In this document: positions 20,416-26,532 of the stretch, one piece after another | How the letters are laid out: each line of letters starts with the position of its first letter | Position numbering within the stretch: position 1 is the first letter of the stretch | From: Pseudomonas sp. HS6 | Lineage (GTDB): Bacteria; Pseudomonadota; Gammaproteobacteria; Pseudomonadales; Pseudomonadaceae | Length of the DNA stretch: 64,000 bases | Assembly: GCF_023375815.1 (NCBI RefSeq) | Contig: NZ_CP067412.1 | Coordinates: 1,426,001-1,490,000, forward strand | Direction of reading: 5' to 3' | Translations under genes and position numbers: made by a program | Notes under the pieces: generated by a model | The model's database searches: none | Told to the model about the DNA's origin: nothing | What the model saw: only the letters and a program-made list of their open reading frames with translations

Positions 20416-22575
20416 ATGACCCGTCCAAAGAAAGCCGAGCCCGCCGCACACGCCGAGCCTTCGCGAATTCGTGAAGGCCTGCCCTTCCCGCTCGGCGCGA
20501 CCTGGGATGGTCTGGGGGTGAACTTTGCGCTGTTTTCCGCCAACGCCACCCGCGTCGAACTGTGCATTTTCGACGATGCCGGCGAAGTCGAGCTCGAACG
20601 CATCGAACTGCCGGAATATACCGACGAGATTTTCCACGGCTACCTGCCCGATGCGCACCCCGGTCTGATCTATGGCTACCGGGTCTACGGCCCTTACGAT
20701 CCGGCCAACGGCCACCGCTTCAACCACAATAAATTGCTGATCGACCCCTACGCCAAGCAACTGGTTGGCCAGTTGAAATGGTCCGAAGCACTGTTCGGCT
20801 ACACCATCGGCCACCCGGATGCCGACCTCAGCTTCGACGAGCGCGACAGTGCGCCCTTCGTCCCCAAATGCAAGGTCATCGACCCGGCGCACACCTGGGG
20901 CAACGACCACCGCGTCAGCGTGCCGTGGGACAAGACCATCATTTATGAAACCCACGTGCGCGGCATCAGCATGCGCCACCCCGGCGTGCCGGATAACGTG
21001 CGCGGTACGTTTGCCGGGCTGATGGTCGATGATGTGCTGGAACACATCCGCAAACTCGGCGTATCCACCGTCGAACTGCTGCCGATCCACGCCTTCGTCA
21101 ACGATCAACACCTGCTGCACAAAGGCATGACCAATTACTGGGGCTACAACAGCATCGCCTTCTTCGCCCCGGACCCGCGTTATCTGGCCAGCGGCAAGAT
21201 CGCCGAGTTCAAGGAAATGGTCGCGCACCTGCACGAAGCCAATCTCGAGGTGATTCTAGACGTGGTCTACAACCACACCGCCGAGGGCAACGAGCAAGGC
21301 CCGACCCTTTCGATGCGCGGGATCGACAACGCTTCGTACTATCGGCTGATGCCGGACGACAAGCGCTTCTACATCAACGATTCCGGCACCGGTAACACCC
21401 TCGACCTGAGCCACCCGTGCGTCTTGCAAATGGTCACCGACTCGCTGCGTTACTGGGCCAGTGAAATGCACGTCGACGGCTTCCGTTTCGACCTGGCGAC
21501 CATTCTTGGCCGCTACCACGACGGTTTCGACGAACGCCACAGCTTTCTCGTGGCCTGCCGCCAGGACCCGGTACTGCGTCAGGTGAAAATGATTGCCGAG
21601 CCGTGGGACTGTGGCCCCGGTGGCTATCAGGTCGGCAACTTCCCGCCGGGGTGGGTCGAATGGAACGACAAGTTCCGCGACACCGTGCGCGCCTTCTGGA
21701 AAGGTGACGACGGCCAAGTCGCCGACTTCGCCAGCCGCATGACCGCCTCCGGGGAAATGTTCAATCAGCGTGGTCGACGGCCTTATTCATCGGTGAACTT
21801 CATCACCGCCCACGACGGTTTCACCCTCAACGATCTGGTGTCCTACAACGACAAACACAACGAGGCCAACGACGAAAACAATCAGGACGGCAGCAACAAC
21901 AACCTGTCCTGGAACCACGGCGTCGAAGGCCCCACCGACGACCCCGAAATCAACGCGCTGCGCCATCGGCAGATGCGCAACTTCTTCGCTACATTGCTGC
22001 TGGCCCAAGGCACGCCGATGCTGGTGGCCGGCGACGAATTCGCCCGCACTCAGGACGGCAACAACAACGCCTATTGCCAGGACAGCGAAATCGGTTGGGT
22101 CAACTGGGACCTGAGCGAGGACGGCAAGGCGCTGCTGAAATTCGTCAAACGCCTGATCAAGCTGCGCCTGACTTACCCGATCCTGCGTCGCGGACGTTTT
22201 CTGGTCGGCGAATACAACGAAGACATCGGGGTCAAGGACGTGACCTGGCTGGCGCCGGACGCCACGGAGATGACCACCGAGCACTGGCACGATGCTCATA
22301 ACCGCTGCCTGGGCATGTTGCTCGATGGCCGCGCCCAGGAAACCGGCATCCGCCGCAAGGGCGCCGACGCGACGTTGCTGCTGGTGGTCAACGCCCATCA
22401 CGACATCGTCAACTTCACGCTGCCGGAAGTGCCTGAAGGCAGTTTCTGGACGTGCATGGTCGACACCAATCAGCCATCGATCCGGGGTCAGGAGCGCTTT
22501 GATTTCGGGCACGAATATTCGGTCACCGGGCGCTCGTTGCTGTTGTTCGAGTTGCAGCGCGAAGAGGAAGACTGA
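20416..22575 (+). CDS. glgX: Glycogen debranching enzyme (isoamylase type)
   Basis: A 719-residue GH13 enzyme that hydrolyses alpha-1,6 branches of glycogen-like glucans in the cytosol. It has an N-terminal CBM48-type sandwich (about 15-150), then a barrel with DVVYNHTAEG near residue 278, GFRFDLAT near 357 (nucleophile), AEPWDCGPGGY near 395 (general acid) and TAHDGFTLNDL near 465. A GGAG site lies 7 bases before the ATG. The next gene, an acyl-CoA dehydrogenase-like protein, starts one base after the stop, tying the glucan genes to the downstream accessory set. Its product chains feed MalQ and TreY. Confidence 0.95.
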   Translation: MTRPKKAEPAAHAEPSRIREGLPFPLGATWDGLGVNFALFSANATRVELCIFDDAGEVELERIELPEYTDEIFHGYLPDAHPGLIYGYRVYGPYDPANGHRFNHNKLLIDPYAKQLVGQLKWSEALFGYTIGHPDADLSFDERDSAPFVPKCKVIDPAHTWGNDHRVSVPWDKTIIYETHVRGISMRHPGVPDNVRGTFAGLMVDDVLEHIRKLGVSTVELLPIHAFVNDQHLLHKGMTNYWGYNSIAFFAPDPRYLASGKIAEFKEMVAHLHEANLEVILDVVYNHTAEGNEQGPTLSMRGIDNASYYRLMPDDKRFYINDSGTGNTLDLSHPCVLQMVTDSLRYWASEMHVDGFRFDLATILGRYHDGFDERHSFLVACRQDPVLRQVKMIAEPWDCGPGGYQVGNFPPGWVEWNDKFRDTVRAFWKGDDGQVADFASRMTASGEMFNQRGRRPYSSVNFITAHDGFTLNDLVSYNDKHNEANDENNQDGSNNNLSWNHGVEGPTDDPEINALRHRQMRNFFATLLLAQGTPMLVAGDEFARTQDGNNNAYCQDSEIGWVNWDLSEDGKALLKFVKRLIKLRLTYPILRRGRFLVGEYNEDIGVKDVTWLAPDATEMTTEHWHDAHNRCLGMLLDGRAQETGIRRKGADATLLLVVNAHHDIVNFTLPEVPEGSFWTCMVDTNQPSIRGQERFDFGHEYSVTGRSLLLFELQREEED

Positions 22576-22576
22576 C

Positions 22577-23575
22577 ATGGATCTGCCCGGCTATTTCTCG
22601 CGGCGCACACCGGACTACGGCGACACCGAATCCCTCGGCCGGTATCTGCGGGAAATGGTCGAAGCCGGTCTCGACCGTCTGCCATTGCCGGGCAGCGGTC
22701 GCACGCTGGAGCGCTGGCAAAGGCTGTCCGAGGTCGGCGGTCATGATCTGGGGTTGTGCAAACTCTATGAAGGCCATATCGATGCCTTAGCGATCATCGA
22801 GCAGCTCGGTGGCTCGCCGACGCCCGCCAGCACGTGGGGCATGTGGGCCGCCGAACCCCCGCAGGCGCGGGTCAGGGTCAGCCGCTCGGGGCAGCTCGTG
22901 CGGTTGAACGGGCGCAAGGCCTGGTGCTCCGGGGCGGCGGTGCTCAGTCACGCCCTGCTTACGGCGTGGGATGAGGATGATCGTCAGCAACTGGTGGCCG
23001 TGGCCCTCGATCAACCGGGCGTACGCGTGACCGATCAAGGCTGGCACGCGGTCGGCATGGCGGCCACCGGCAGCGTCGAGGTGCTGTTCGAGGAGGTAGA
23101 GGCCCAAGCGATCGGCGACCCCGGCGACTACCTGCAACGTCCGGGTTTCTGGCACGGCGGAATCGGCATCGCCGCATGCTGGTACGGCGCCGCGAGGGAG
23201 ATCGGCGAACGCTTGCGCCAGCAATGTGCGCGGCGTGAGGACCCTCACGCGCTGGCCAGCCTCGGTGCCGTCGACAGCGCCTTGCACGCGGCCGCTCAAG
23301 TGCTGCGCGTCAGCGCTCTGGACATCGACAGCAATCCCCACGCCAACGCCGAGCTGCTGGCCCGCCGCGTACGCGCCGTGGTCGAGGATGCCGCCGAACA
23401 GGTGATCCGCGAAAGCGGTCGAGCACTTGGGGCCGGGCCATTCTGCAAGGATCCGCACTTCGCCCGCCTGGCGGCCGACTTACCGGTTTACCTGCGTCAG
23501 AGCCATGCCGAACGTGATCTGGCGGCACTTGGCCAATTGATTGCGCAACAACCACGCGAGGGTTGGGCCCTATGA
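22577..23575 (+). CDS. Acyl-CoA dehydrogenase-like flavoprotein
   Basis: A 332-residue protein, shorter than the usual 380-400 for acyl-CoA dehydrogenases. The N-terminal part is helical, a middle beta-domain (about 95-200) contains WGMWAAEPP and a GRKAWCSGA segment as in the FAD-contact region of the family, and a helical C-terminal domain follows. I could not place the catalytic glutamate with certainty. The ATG at 22577 lies one base after the glgX stop; the frame is open much further upstream but only as an overlap with glgX. Its own stop overlaps the PIG-L start (ATGA). Known homologues oxidise acyl-CoA alpha-beta bonds, but the neighbours suggest a sugar-derived or amine substrate rather than fatty-acid degradation; that is inference. 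Confidence 0.75.
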   Translation: MDLPGYFSRRTPDYGDTESLGRYLREMVEAGLDRLPLPGSGRTLERWQRLSEVGGHDLGLCKLYEGHIDALAIIEQLGGSPTPASTWGMWAAEPPQARVRVSRSGQLVRLNGRKAWCSGAAVLSHALLTAWDEDDRQQLVAVALDQPGVRVTDQGWHAVGMAATGSVEVLFEEVEAQAIGDPGDYLQRPGFWHGGIGIAACWYGAAREIGERLRQQCARREDPHALASLGAVDSALHAAAQVLRVSALDIDSNPHANAELLARRVRAVVEDAAEQVIRESGRALGAGPFCKDPHFARLAADLPVYLRQSHAERDLAALGQLIAQQPREGWAL

Positions 23576-24330
23576 AGCGCAATCCGATCGTCGGCGAGGG
23601 CACCTCACTGCATGAATGGCAGGGCTCACGTCATCTGGCGGCGGTGGACAGCATCGACATTCTTGATCTGGTACCGCCGGGATCGCGGGCGGTGGTGATC
23701 GCGCCGCATCCGGACGATGAAGTGCTCGGTTGTGGCGGGCTGCTGCAACGACTCGGGGCGGCGGGACGCACCTTGCAATTGATTTCGGTCACCGATGGCA
23801 GCGCCAGTCATCCGGGCTCGGATCGCTGGCCGGTGGAGCGCCTGAGCGTGGCGCGCCCGCAGGAATCCGCCGAAGCCTTGCGTCGTCTCGGCCTGCCCAT
23901 GCACCAGTTGCAGTGGCTGCGCGGCGGCTTCCCCGACACCCAGGTCGCGGCGCGCGAGTCGATGCTTTGCGAATACCTGACCCGTTACCTGCAAGCCGAT
24001 GACGTGATCTTCACCACCTGGCGCGAGGACGGCCACAGCGACCACGAAGCCGTCGGCCGCGCCAGCGTCGAAGCGGCGAAACACGTGGGTGCGATTTGCC
24101 ACGAGCTGCCGGTCTGGGCCTGGCACTGGGCAACCCCCGAAGACGCCATCGTACCCTGGGAACGGGCGCGCAAAATCCTGCTCAGCCCGGCGCAAGTCGC
24201 GCGCAAGCGTCACGCGGTGCACGCGTTCGCCAGCCAGCTGGAGGGCGATCCGGCAGCGGGCCTGCCACCGGTGCTCGCGCACTATGTCATCGATCGACTG
24301 TTGCAACCATTCGAGCTGGTATTTCTATGA
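23572..24330 (+). CDS. PIG-L family deacetylase (catalytic residues intact)
   Basis: A 252-residue LmbE/PIG-L-type zinc deacetylase. The PHPDDE motif is at residues 45-50 and GHSDH at 154-158. By comparison with MshB of Mycobacterium, His46, Asp49 and His158 match the zinc ligands, Asp48 the general base and His155 the second catalytic residue, so all five are present. The family removes acetyl groups from N-acetylglucosamine-type moieties (GlcNAc-PI, GlcNAc-inositol, GlcNAc-malate). No membrane segment is visible, so it is cytosolic. Its start overlaps the ACAD stop, and its stop overlaps a decoy ATG inside a 14-nt duplication before the methyltransferase. A second, degenerate paralogue lies 1.4 kb downstream. 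Confidence 0.88.
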   Translation: MKRNPIVGEGTSLHEWQGSRHLAAVDSIDILDLVPPGSRAVVIAPHPDDEVLGCGGLLQRLGAAGRTLQLISVTDGSASHPGSDRWPVERLSVARPQESAEALRRLGLPMHQLQWLRGGFPDTQVAARESMLCEYLTRYLQADDVIFTTWREDGHSDHEAVGRASVEAAKHVGAICHELPVWAWHWATPEDAIVPWERARKILLSPAQVARKRHAVHAFASQLEGDPAAGLPPVLAHYVIDRLLQPFELVFL

Positions 24331-24348
24331 GTGTATTCCTGTGAGTGT
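24321..24348 (+). repeat. 14-nt tandem duplication at a gene junction
   Basis: ATTTCTATGAGTGT (24321-24334) is followed directly by ATTCCTGTGAGTGT (24335-24348), 12 of 14 identical. The first copy holds an ATG that overlaps the PIG-L stop but opens only five codons (M-S-V-F-L) before a TGA. That TGA overlaps the GTG start of the methyltransferase. Confidence 0.85.
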
Positions 24349-24940
24349 CGAGGATCGCTACTTCGAAGGCCTGTTCGCGGGCAATAACGACCCCTGGGGA
24401 TTCCGCCAGCGCTGGTACGAGCAACGTAAACGCCTCATGACCCTGGCGGCCCTGCCCCGCCCGCACTACCGGGCAATCTTTGAACCAGGGTGCGCCAACG
24501 GTGAACTGGGTGCGGCGCTGGCCGAACGCTGCGATCGGCTGTTGTGCTGCGACACCAGTGCCGCCGCAGTCAATCTGGCGCGTACCCGGCTGAGCCTGTT
24601 CGACCACGCCGAGGTGCATCACGGTCGTCTGCCTGACGACTGGCCCGAGGAAAAATTCGACCTGATCATATTCAGCGAAATCGGCTACTACCTGGATCGG
24701 CAGGATCTGACAGAGGTCATCCGTCACATCAGCGATTCGCTGACGGCGGATGGGCAATTACTGGCCTGTCACTGGCGACCACCCATTGAAGGCTGCCCGC
24801 TCAATGCCCGGCAGGTTCACGACCTGATTCACGAACAGCTGCACCTACCGCGCCTGGTGCTGCATCAGGAGGCCGATTTCATACTTGAAATATGGAGCCG
24901 AGAACCTCGCTCAGTGGCCGCGCTGGAGGGATTGCGATGA
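24341..24940 (+). CDS. NodS-like SAM-dependent methyltransferase
   Basis: A 199-residue class I methyltransferase. Motif I is FEPGCANGELG near residues 45-56, a CCDTS acidic loop follows near 68-72, and a DLIIFSEIGYYL segment occupies the motif IV position. The N-terminal NDPWGFRQRWYE block is typical of NodS-type N-methyltransferases. The start is taken as GTG at 24341, because the ATG 14 bases upstream is out of frame after a tandem duplication. Its stop overlaps the GT2 start (ATGA). Its position after a sugar deacetylase suggests methylation of the freed amine, as NodS does after NodB in Nod-factor synthesis; this is an analogy, not evidence of Nod-factor production. Confidence 0.82.
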   Translation: MSVEDRYFEGLFAGNNDPWGFRQRWYEQRKRLMTLAALPRPHYRAIFEPGCANGELGAALAERCDRLLCCDTSAAAVNLARTRLSLFDHAEVHHGRLPDDWPEEKFDLIIFSEIGYYLDRQDLTEVIRHISDSLTADGQLLACHWRPPIEGCPLNARQVHDLIHEQLHLPRLVLHQEADFILEIWSREPRSVAALEGLR

Positions 24941-25596
24941 TCGGCATCCTGATTCCCGCGCACAACGAAGAAGACTGGCTCGATGACTGCCTGTGCGCCG
25001 CCCTGCGCGCGGGTGACCATCCTTTGCTGGCGGGTGAACCGGTGGAAATCCTGGTGGTGCTCGACAGTTGCACCGATCGTTCGGCGCACATCGTCAGCCA
25101 GTACCCGGTGCTCGCGCTAAGCATCGAAGCGCGCAATGTCGGGCAGGCGCGCGCCATTGGCGCACAACAACTGCTTGAACGCGGTGCGCGCTGGATTTCC
25201 TGCTCGGACGCCGACAGCCGTGTCGCCGAGGACTGGTTGGTGGCACAACTGGGGCTGGGCATGGATGCCGTGTGTGGCACGGTGACGGTCGAGCGTTGGC
25301 ATGAGTCGTTCGATGAAGCCGCGCAGATTCGCTATCACCGTGATTACCAGGCCTGCGAAGGTCACCGGCACATACACGGCGCCAATCTGGGTGTCAGCGC
25401 GCAAGCCTACATCCGCGCCGGCGGGTTCGAACCGTTGCCCTGTGATGAGGACGTGCAACTGGTCCGGCAACTGGAGCGTTGCGGGGCCAGCATCGCCTGG
25501 AGCCACCGCCCGCAGGTCGTCACCAGTGCCCGCCTGGACAGTCGGGCACGCGGTGGCTTTGGCGACTATCTGCGACAGCTGGCACAGACTGAATAA
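24937..25596 (+). CDS. GT2-family glycosyltransferase, soluble
   Basis: A 219-residue GT-A fold glycosyltransferase. The N-terminal ILIPAHNEEDWLDDC segment binds the nucleotide, the metal-binding DxD appears as CSDADS near residue 90, and a conserved HGANLGVSA acceptor-loop segment and a DEDVQL acidic motif follow near residues 148 and 169. No membrane helix is visible, so it is not a synthase-type processive enzyme. It is the last gene of the run; an A-tract follows. Co-translation with the methyltransferase and PIG-L genes suggests that it makes or extends the sugar that they modify. Donor and acceptor are unknown. Confidence 0.82.
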   Translation: MIGILIPAHNEEDWLDDCLCAALRAGDHPLLAGEPVEILVVLDSCTDRSAHIVSQYPVLALSIEARNVGQARAIGAQQLLERGARWISCSDADSRVAEDWLVAQLGLGMDAVCGTVTVERWHESFDEAAQIRYHRDYQACEGHRHIHGANLGVSAQAYIRAGGFEPLPCDEDVQLVRQLERCGASIAWSHRPQVVTSARLDSRARGGFGDYLRQLAQTE

Positions 25597-25770
25597 AAAA
25601 AAACGGATCAGATGGATCTGTAACGCGACGAACCGTGCGTCTTGAGCAATACTCTGCATCGCGGCAATCCAGGGTTCGGAGCGCTGCAGGGTTATCAACC
25701 AGCCTTCACGGGTCAAACACGCGCCGTCGTGCGTGACTGAAGGCCAGACACAACAAGGACGTCTTGCCCC

Positions 25771-26532
25771 ATGAAACCGTTATCTCTCAACGAAAGCGGC
25801 CTGCCGGCGCAAATCTGGAACAGCGCCGCGCAACTCGACAATATTCCGGTCATCAACACCCATAGTCTCGTGCCGCCCGGTGCTCGTGCCGTGGTTATCG
25901 CTCCGCACCCCGGCGATGAAGTGGTGACCTGCGGCGGCCTGCTGCAACTGCTGTCCGCCCTTGGGCATCCCCTGCAATTGCTTTCCGTCACCGACGGCAG
26001 CGCCAGCCATCCCGGCTCGCGCCAATGGTCGGAAAAACGCCTGAGCGTGTTCCGCCCTCAGGAAAGCGTCGAAGCCTTGCGCCGCCTGGGGCTACCGATG
26101 CACAGCCTGAAATGGGTGCGCGGTGGCTTCACCGACAATGCTCTGCTCGACCAGGAAGCCCAACTGATCGAGTTCATCTCACGCTATCTACGCCCCGGCG
26201 ACGTGGTGTTCAGCACGTGGTGCGAAGACGGCTCGGCGGATCATGAAGTGGTTGGCCGGGCCAGCGCCAAAGCCGCCCGCCAGGCTGGCGCCACCTATCA
26301 CGATGTGCCGGTCTGGGCCTGGCACTGGCCTGAGCGCGATCAGACGCAGATCCCGTGGCACCGTGCGCGCAAGCTGCGCCTCGATACCTGGACCGTCGCG
26401 CGCAAGAGCCACGCCACCCACGCTTACGCCAGCCAACTGAACGGAGAACCGGCCATCGGTATTGCACCGCTGTTGCCCAAGGCCATTCTGGAGCGCATGC
26501 GCCTGCCTTATGAAATTGTCTTCGTTGACTGA
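25771..26532 (+). CDS. PIG-L family protein with degenerate catalytic site
   Basis: A 253-residue paralogue of the PIG-L protein encoded 1.4 kb upstream; the two align almost without gaps from residue 33 on. The deacetylase motif reads PHPGDE (residues 45-50) instead of PHPDDE, and GSADH (154-158) instead of GHSDH. By comparison with MshB, the zinc ligands are kept (His46, Asp49, His158) but the general-base Asp is Gly48 and the second catalytic His is Ser155. The rest of the protein is well conserved, including TDGSASHPGS and VWAWHWP, so the gene does not look decayed. It may be a pseudo-enzyme: a regulator, a binding protein or a partner of the active paralogue. It has its own upstream gap of 174 bases and is followed by a hairpin. 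Confidence 0.85.
   Translation: MKPLSLNESGLPAQIWNSAAQLDNIPVINTHSLVPPGARAVVIAPHPGDEVVTCGGLLQLLSALGHPLQLLSVTDGSASHPGSRQWSEKRLSVFRPQESVEALRRLGLPMHSLKWVRGGFTDNALLDQEAQLIEFISRYLRPGDVVFSTWCEDGSADHEVVGRASAKAARQAGATYHDVPVWAWHWPERDQTQIPWHRARKLRLDTWTVARKSHATHAYASQLNGEPAIGIAPLLPKAILERMRLPYEIVFVD

Follow-up and report, generated by a model that had tools for sequence, protein, structure and literature searches.

The 64,000-nucleotide window analyzed here (forward strand of contig NZ_CP067412.1 of Pseudomonas sp. HS6, assembly GCF_023375815.1, positions 1,426,001 to 1,490,000) encodes two paralogous proteins of the PIG-L/LmbE family, designated PLA and PLB. In PLB the general-base Asp of the family is replaced by Gly. 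The comparative analysis presented below suggests, with a probability that we place at roughly 55%, that PLB is a fixed and selected pseudo-deacetylase, that is, a non-deacetylase that keeps its metal site, acts independently of PLA and is probably under Gac/Rsm control. This reading is carried by the fixation of the base loss among PLB orthologs, by purifying selection on the gene, by its persistence in genomes without PLA and by the conservation of its leader.

Residues lost and retained in PLB

The two paralogs are located as follows, PLA being part of a run of four genes (ACAD-PLA-MT-GT) that precedes PLB:
25771..26532, forward strand: PLB, PIG-L-family protein of 253 aa with Gly48 at the base position and Ser155, metal ligands His46, Asp49 and His158 kept
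23572..24330, forward strand: PLA, PIG-L paralog with intact PHPDDE and GHSDH motifs

The motif difference between them had been proposed by a sequence-only reading of this DNA and is confirmed by translation of the open reading frames (ORFs): PLB carries PHPGDE at residues 45-50 and GSADH at residues 154-158. A gap-free alignment with PLA (window 23572-24327) yields 139 identities in 252 residues (55%), with Asp48 changed to Gly and His155 to Ser. Both proteins match PF02585 above its cut-off of 28.2 bits (PLB 74.3, PLA 95.4), and by this match and the common fold PLB belongs to the superfamily; of the residues that mark a de-N-acetylase, it has neither the general-base Asp nor the second-motif His (MshB His144). 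The sections of PMC4101496 consulted describe the LmbE-like motif HXD1D2+H with D1 as the general base and with both His residues and D2 as metal ligands. They tie MshB His144 and Asp146 (PLB positions 155 and 157) to substrate recognition, assign the oxyanion/acid role to Tyr142 and, for glycopeptide deacetylases, name the equivalent of His144 as oxyanion-stabilizing. On these roles, the two residues lost from PLB correspond to the general base and to a substrate or oxyanion His, so that the earlier description of both as catalytic stands for Asp48 and has to be qualified for His155. Databases label PLB orthologs 'PIG-L deacetylase', a name that is probably wrong. The genome encodes a third PIG-L protein (L267, G000:C1:3569087-3569593); it is 494 aa long, has a putative membrane segment at its N terminus and keeps HADD and HPDH.

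Fixation of the base loss and selection on PLB

Orthologs were compared across 201 loci, comprising the window, 100 stretches from a first survey, 80 named loci kept out of 219 relatives and 20 hand-chosen loci. The first survey covered 149 Pseudomonas genomes, 120 of which had a match at E 1e-30; its 100 stretches, taken around listed matches that are a part of all matches, form together with the window a set of 101 loci. PLB is held by 160 of the 201 loci, corresponding to 141 distinct proteins, and the distinct count is used here since some genomes occur twice. A further set of relatives (P0001-P0121) consisted of the window protein and the best 120 of 483 matches listed. Outside Pseudomonas, a PLA relative was detected at E 1e-30 in 3 of 273 other genomes from a class-wide draw.

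Gly48 is present in all 141 distinct PLB proteins, as are His46, Asp49, Asp157 and His158, in agreement with the earlier proposal that the zinc-ligand positions are kept. In P0001-P0121, Gly48 is likewise universal (121/121), as are His46 and Asp49 (121/121), and His158 is found in 118 of 121. A chance origin of Gly48 is excluded by its fixation in 121/121 and 141/141 proteins. The sequence-only reading had asked whether Gly48 and Ser155 are both fixed, and had seen in the loss of exactly these two side chains a single selected change. The expectation holds for Gly48 and fails for Ser155, which occurs in only 4 of 141 proteins and was therefore rejected as a selected residue. Position 155 takes 11 kinds of residue in all (Asn 88, Ile 14, Thr 13, Asp 9, Pro 5, Ser 4, His 3, Val 2, and Lys, Leu and Ala 1 each), and a joint selected loss does not describe a site where His itself survives in 3 of 141. 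Across these sequences the fixed change is Gly48 and position 155 is relaxed, a pattern that fits loss of the base first and relaxation of His155 afterwards. More broadly, 51 of the 76 positions that are at least 97% conserved in PLA remain so in PLB, and at nine such positions (11, 48, 52, 125, 155, 187, 226, 243 and 247) the PLA residue is found in fewer than half of PLB proteins.

Purifying selection on PLB, a further expectation of the earlier reading, was borne out by omega (dN/dS) estimates of 0.091 at loci without the run and 0.073 at loci with it (IQ-TREE, GY+F3X4, fast search, 36 sequences per gene set). The corresponding values are 0.083 for PLA, 0.076 for MT and 0.039 for EEP, the endonuclease/phosphatase-family gene 3' of PLB. 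Pairwise NG86 medians are 0.127 and 0.128 for PLB without and with the run, 0.107 for PLA, 0.079 for MT and 0.045 for EEP. The gene is a full-length ORF at 160 of 160 loci, and PLA at 136 of 138; at two loci (L059 and L257) PLA is broken into two reading frames and the adjoining PLB is full-length. That decay does occur in the family is illustrated by P0220, a sporadic relative that has kept Asp48 and lost one metal ligand and the motif Glu, and PLB could by analogy be a decaying gene kept by chance after duplication. With omega at 0.07-0.09, intact ORFs throughout, and invariant metal ligands and Gly48, this explanation is hardly credible, and strain-specific decay is ruled out. Neither of the outcomes that the sequence-only reading had named as signs of such decay, an ortholog with an intact base or broken frames in other strains, was seen: no PLB-clade protein with Asp48 was found among the 141.

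Persistence of PLB without PLA

The genes that precede PLB on the forward strand are:
20416..22575, forward strand: glgX homolog; at 61 of the 63 loci lacking the run, no recognized gene lies between it and PLB
22574..23575, forward strand: ACAD, acyl-CoA-dehydrogenase-like, first gene of the run (start approximate)
24326..24940, forward strand: MT, NodS-like S-adenosylmethionine methyltransferase of the run (start approximate)
24892..25596, forward strand: GT, family 2 glycosyltransferase of the run (start approximate)

The order is thus glgX, the run and then PLB; the neighboring genes are taken to be treY, glgX and glgB. The run (22574-25596) resembles a small pathway that would remove the acetyl group of an amino sugar and then methylate the nitrogen. 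No report of it was found in the open-licence literature, and it also sits away from glgX in seven other loci (L122-L127 and L131).

Among the 101 loci, 45 hold the run and PLB, 26 hold PLB alone, 26 hold the run without PLB and 4 hold PLA alone. Of the 26 genomes with PLB alone, 24 showed no second PLA-type match (E 1e-30) and no MT (E 1e-15); the remaining two (G043 and G130) have a distant PLA-type locus with ACAD and MT. In the full comparison, the run is missing from 63 of 160 PLB loci. Remnants of the run precede PLB in several of them: 25 codons of the PLA 3' end in L159 (80% identical, E 8e-9), two pieces from the first 51 ACAD codons between glgX and PLB in L034, and a 32-codon ACAD start in L106 and L175 (equal matches, 47%, E 1e-5). 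At these loci the run was therefore deleted while PLB stayed. Presence of the run changes 15 times by Fitch parsimony on a FastTree tree of PLB, which is weakly supported. In two run-less clades Arg95 (Cys in 5 proteins) and/or Asp122 (Glu or His in 11 proteins) has been lost, a loss found in none of the 87 run-bearing distinct PLB proteins; these positions probably correspond to MshB Arg68 and Asp95 and would serve substrate recognition.

These distributions bear directly on the proposal of the sequence-only reading that PLB is an inactive partner, a regulator or a substrate binder of the neighboring deacetylase. As a general account it fails, contradicted by the 24 of 26 run-less genomes without a PLA-type match and by the Arg95 and Asp122 losses, and a general partner role was rejected on the run-less genomes. 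Confined to genomes with both copies, where PLB would join PLA as an inactive subunit, bind its substrate or regulate it, the proposal draws on the side-by-side arrangement in 45 of 71 PLB loci, on the 55% identity without gaps and on the conceivable formation of mixed oligomers, BshB being a hexamer built from dimers according to the portion of PMC4101496 consulted. Against this, PLB does without a PLA-type partner in the genomes just cited, omega changes little with the presence of the run, and 26 loci hold the run without PLB. We regard a partnership in the 45 loci holding both as possible, if quite unlikely.

In one contig of P. frederiksbergensis 36C6 (NZ_MOBM01000038.1, 'Joined_contig') the order treY-glgX-PLB-EEP-OMP-glgB occurs at two places (L178 and L182), possibly as an assembly artefact.

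A conserved leader with a CsrA/Rsm-type site

PLB is separated from GT by 174 nt. This leader contains the following elements, which are conserved both at loci with the run and at loci without it:
25753..25762, forward strand: ACAAGGACGT, predicted CsrA/Rsm-type consensus site at the PLB ribosome-binding site (ACARGGANGT in 139 of 141 distinct leaders)
25661..25687, forward strand: conserved hairpin with modest covariation
25648..25653, forward strand: AATACT, -10-like element 22-23 nt upstream of the hairpin loop (89 of 97 leaders having both)

That PLB has a conserved leader of its own, with a site that matches the CsrA consensus, is new here. Within 40 nt of the PLB start, ACARGGANGT is present in 86 of 87 distinct leaders with the run and in 53 of 54 without it, 139 of 141 in all. 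Conservation over 136 leaders is 1.00 for ACA and GGA and 0.99 for GT, dropping to 0.33-0.60 at the four positions upstream and to 0.42-0.43 at the two downstream. EEP leaders are also fairly conserved (0.71-0.98) around their own GGA, which stands in a different sequence; hence, leader conservation alone is no proof of function. The stricter pattern ACARGGAYGT, evaluated with automatically picked gene starts that may be off, precedes 128 of 136 PLB starts and no start of treY (65), glgX (156), ACAD (122), MT (121), GT (105), EEP (98), OMP (162) or glgB (68). It precedes 3 of 127 PLA starts (L073, L242 and L243).

The PLB pattern matches the CsrA consensus obtained by systematic evolution of ligands by exponential enrichment (SELEX), reported in the sections of PMC7652899 consulted as RUACARGGAUGU, with ACA and GGA 100% conserved and GU present in all but one ligand. 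Genome-wide, ACARGGAYGTN(2-12)ATG occurs 17 times and its reversed pattern 5 times. Roughly half of these 17 sites lead into short ORFs, and six others precede genes for a serralysin, a protein with an IcmF/TssM N-terminal domain, a histidine kinase, an ADP-ribosylglycohydrolase, an alpha/beta hydrolase and a MerR protein. Proteases of the aprA type and type VI genes are Gac/Rsm targets. Three CsrA-family genes are present in this genome.

Covariation of the upstream hairpin was assessed in 28 leaders, from 34 listed of 101 motif matches among the 141. Pairing is possible in 94.2% of 224 cells, and three pairs show changes on both sides. The covariation score (0.198, against 0.127 for shuffled alignments) was reached in 0 of 500 shuffles, and two count measures were equalled by 42 of 500; covariation is therefore considered modest. 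The -10-like motif CRATACT begins 22-23 nt upstream of the loop motif, and was not reported by a consensus promoter scan. Rfam gave no match up to E 1 in 25400-26000. A shared operator was considered for the hairpin and rejected: it occurs once without mismatch in the genome and at five other places with 3 mismatches. Just 3' of the GT stop, at window 25604-25621, lies CGGATCAGATGGATCTG, a short inverted repeat with GGA motifs.

Recurrent loss of the base in the family

On a 69-sequence IQ-TREE tree, the 26 PLB sequences form one clade (ultrafast bootstrap, UFBoot, 100). Base-less proteins recur in a separate clade, where they stand among intact relatives as two groups: L073/L242/P0122 carry Ile48, P0142/P0147 carry Gly48, and each group has UFBoot 100. 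Besides PLB, this PIG-L family has thus undergone at least two further, independent losses of the base. All 141 PLB proteins also group together on a larger FastTree tree; its node support is 0.331 and its sister group differs from that of the IQ-TREE tree, so that any exact placement of PLB within PLA is tentative. In L073 and L242 a lone PIG-L gene follows glgX, the run is missing, and neither genome has MT. The two PIG-L proteins (PHPIDE) are 95% identical, with 32 silent and 12 replacement codon differences. His155 is kept in P0142, P0147, P0122 and L242 (Gln155 in L073), and its retention in these four base-less proteins suggests that the base goes before His155. Sporadic loss appears to recur in distant relatives, where Gly48 was found in 2 of 119 readable sequences (P0312 with His155, P0324 with Gln155), single records that could be sequence errors. 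A strict rule tying solitary PIG-L genes to base loss is contradicted by L082, a single PIG-L gene after glgX with Asp48 intact. The genomic context of P0142 and P0147 was sought in 56 genomes and not found.

Proposed role of PLB

In the mechanism that we favor, PLB would have arisen from a PLA-type protein by a single Asp48 to Gly change at the base of its clade, after which His155 would have drifted while the His46-Asp49-His158 site stayed invariant, presumably binding metal. PLB would work alone and not as an obligate partner of PLA, as indicated by its own conserved leader with a promoter-like element and by its survival of run deletion. Rsm proteins would most likely repress it during growth, given that the CsrA-type site covers its ribosome-binding site, and the Gac cascade would release it late. 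In the weakest step, PLB may bind a small carbohydrate or glycoconjugate at the metal center rather than hydrolyze it; binding is ranked above a new reaction on the ground that some lineages lacking the run have relaxed their recognition residues and kept their metal ligands.

Several points weigh against this proposal. All of the evidence is computational. A metal ligand is replaced (Gln158) in 3 of the 121 relatives P0001-P0121, and the retention of Glu50, Asp153 and Asp157 in PLB leaves room for residual or different activity. The ACARGGAYGT site also stands before an intact PLA in a complete run (L243) and is therefore not strictly tied to base loss. The GGA of the window leader does lie within a predicted hairpin loop; nevertheless, that leader folds no better than its shuffles (z -0.12 and 1.01), and the site falls in a loop in 25 of 141 leaders against 25-37 of 139 with shuffled flanks, so conserved hairpin presentation is not supported. 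A search for selected words in the main texts of the Rsm-related papers PMC4353343, PMC3684763 and PMC7937890 returned no mention of the PLB gene. The one deacetylase met in the main text of PMC7937890 is an unrelated one.

The capacity of the PIG-L fold for other chemistry, exemplified by GalB, must be added to these points. By analogy, PLB could be an enzyme that catalyzes a different reaction with its retained metal and no Asp base, acting as a lyase, a hydratase or a slow hydrolase. The variation of residues 95, 122 and 155 between PLB lineages would be unusual for an enzyme with one substrate, and the motif has gained no invariant acid or base in place of Asp48, which makes this explanation unlikely, if the most serious of the competing ones. 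As a generalization of the pseudo-deacetylase reading, we tentatively raise the possibility that the family has been turned repeatedly, with the base lost first, from biosynthetic deacetylases into non-hydrolytic metal-dependent binding proteins (sensors or effectors of a glycogen- or trehalose-linked carbohydrate), PLB being the most widespread case and a stand-alone member of the Gac/Rsm regulon.

The family offers a natural series of loci with an active copy alone, with an active and an inactive copy, with an inactive copy alone and with further independent base losses, which makes a role of the pseudo-deacetylase after loss of the enzyme directly testable by deletion. The Rsm-type leader would, moreover, connect the unstudied PLB with the regulator of carbon storage and with the region of glycogen and trehalose genes in which it lies.

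Comparison with known systems

In the open-licence literature, no paper was found on PIG-L pseudoenzyme deacetylases, on LmbE proteins beside glgX in Pseudomonas, or on a PIG-L protein with the trehalose operon or the GacA regulon in Pseudomonas. PLB differs from the LmbE-like/PIG-L de-N-acetylases of PF02585, such as MshB, BshB and diacetylchitobiose deacetylase, in having Gly in place of the general-base Asp in 141 of 141 proteins and in the almost constant replacement of His155. GalB, the 4-carboxy-2-hydroxymuconate hydratase of Pseudomonas putida (PDB 5cgz), shares the PIG-L fold at 17% identity to PLB, and the two are compared by fold only. With respect to its putative control, PLB differs from CsrA-repressed mRNAs of the glgC type in that its leader has one clear consensus site, predicted from sequence, and no supported loop presentation. 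It resembles them in that the ACA-GGA-GU consensus overlaps the Shine-Dalgarno region, as in Escherichia coli glgC, a glycogen gene that, according to the parts of PMC7652899 consulted, is repressed by CsrA through leader binding, with one site over the Shine-Dalgarno sequence.
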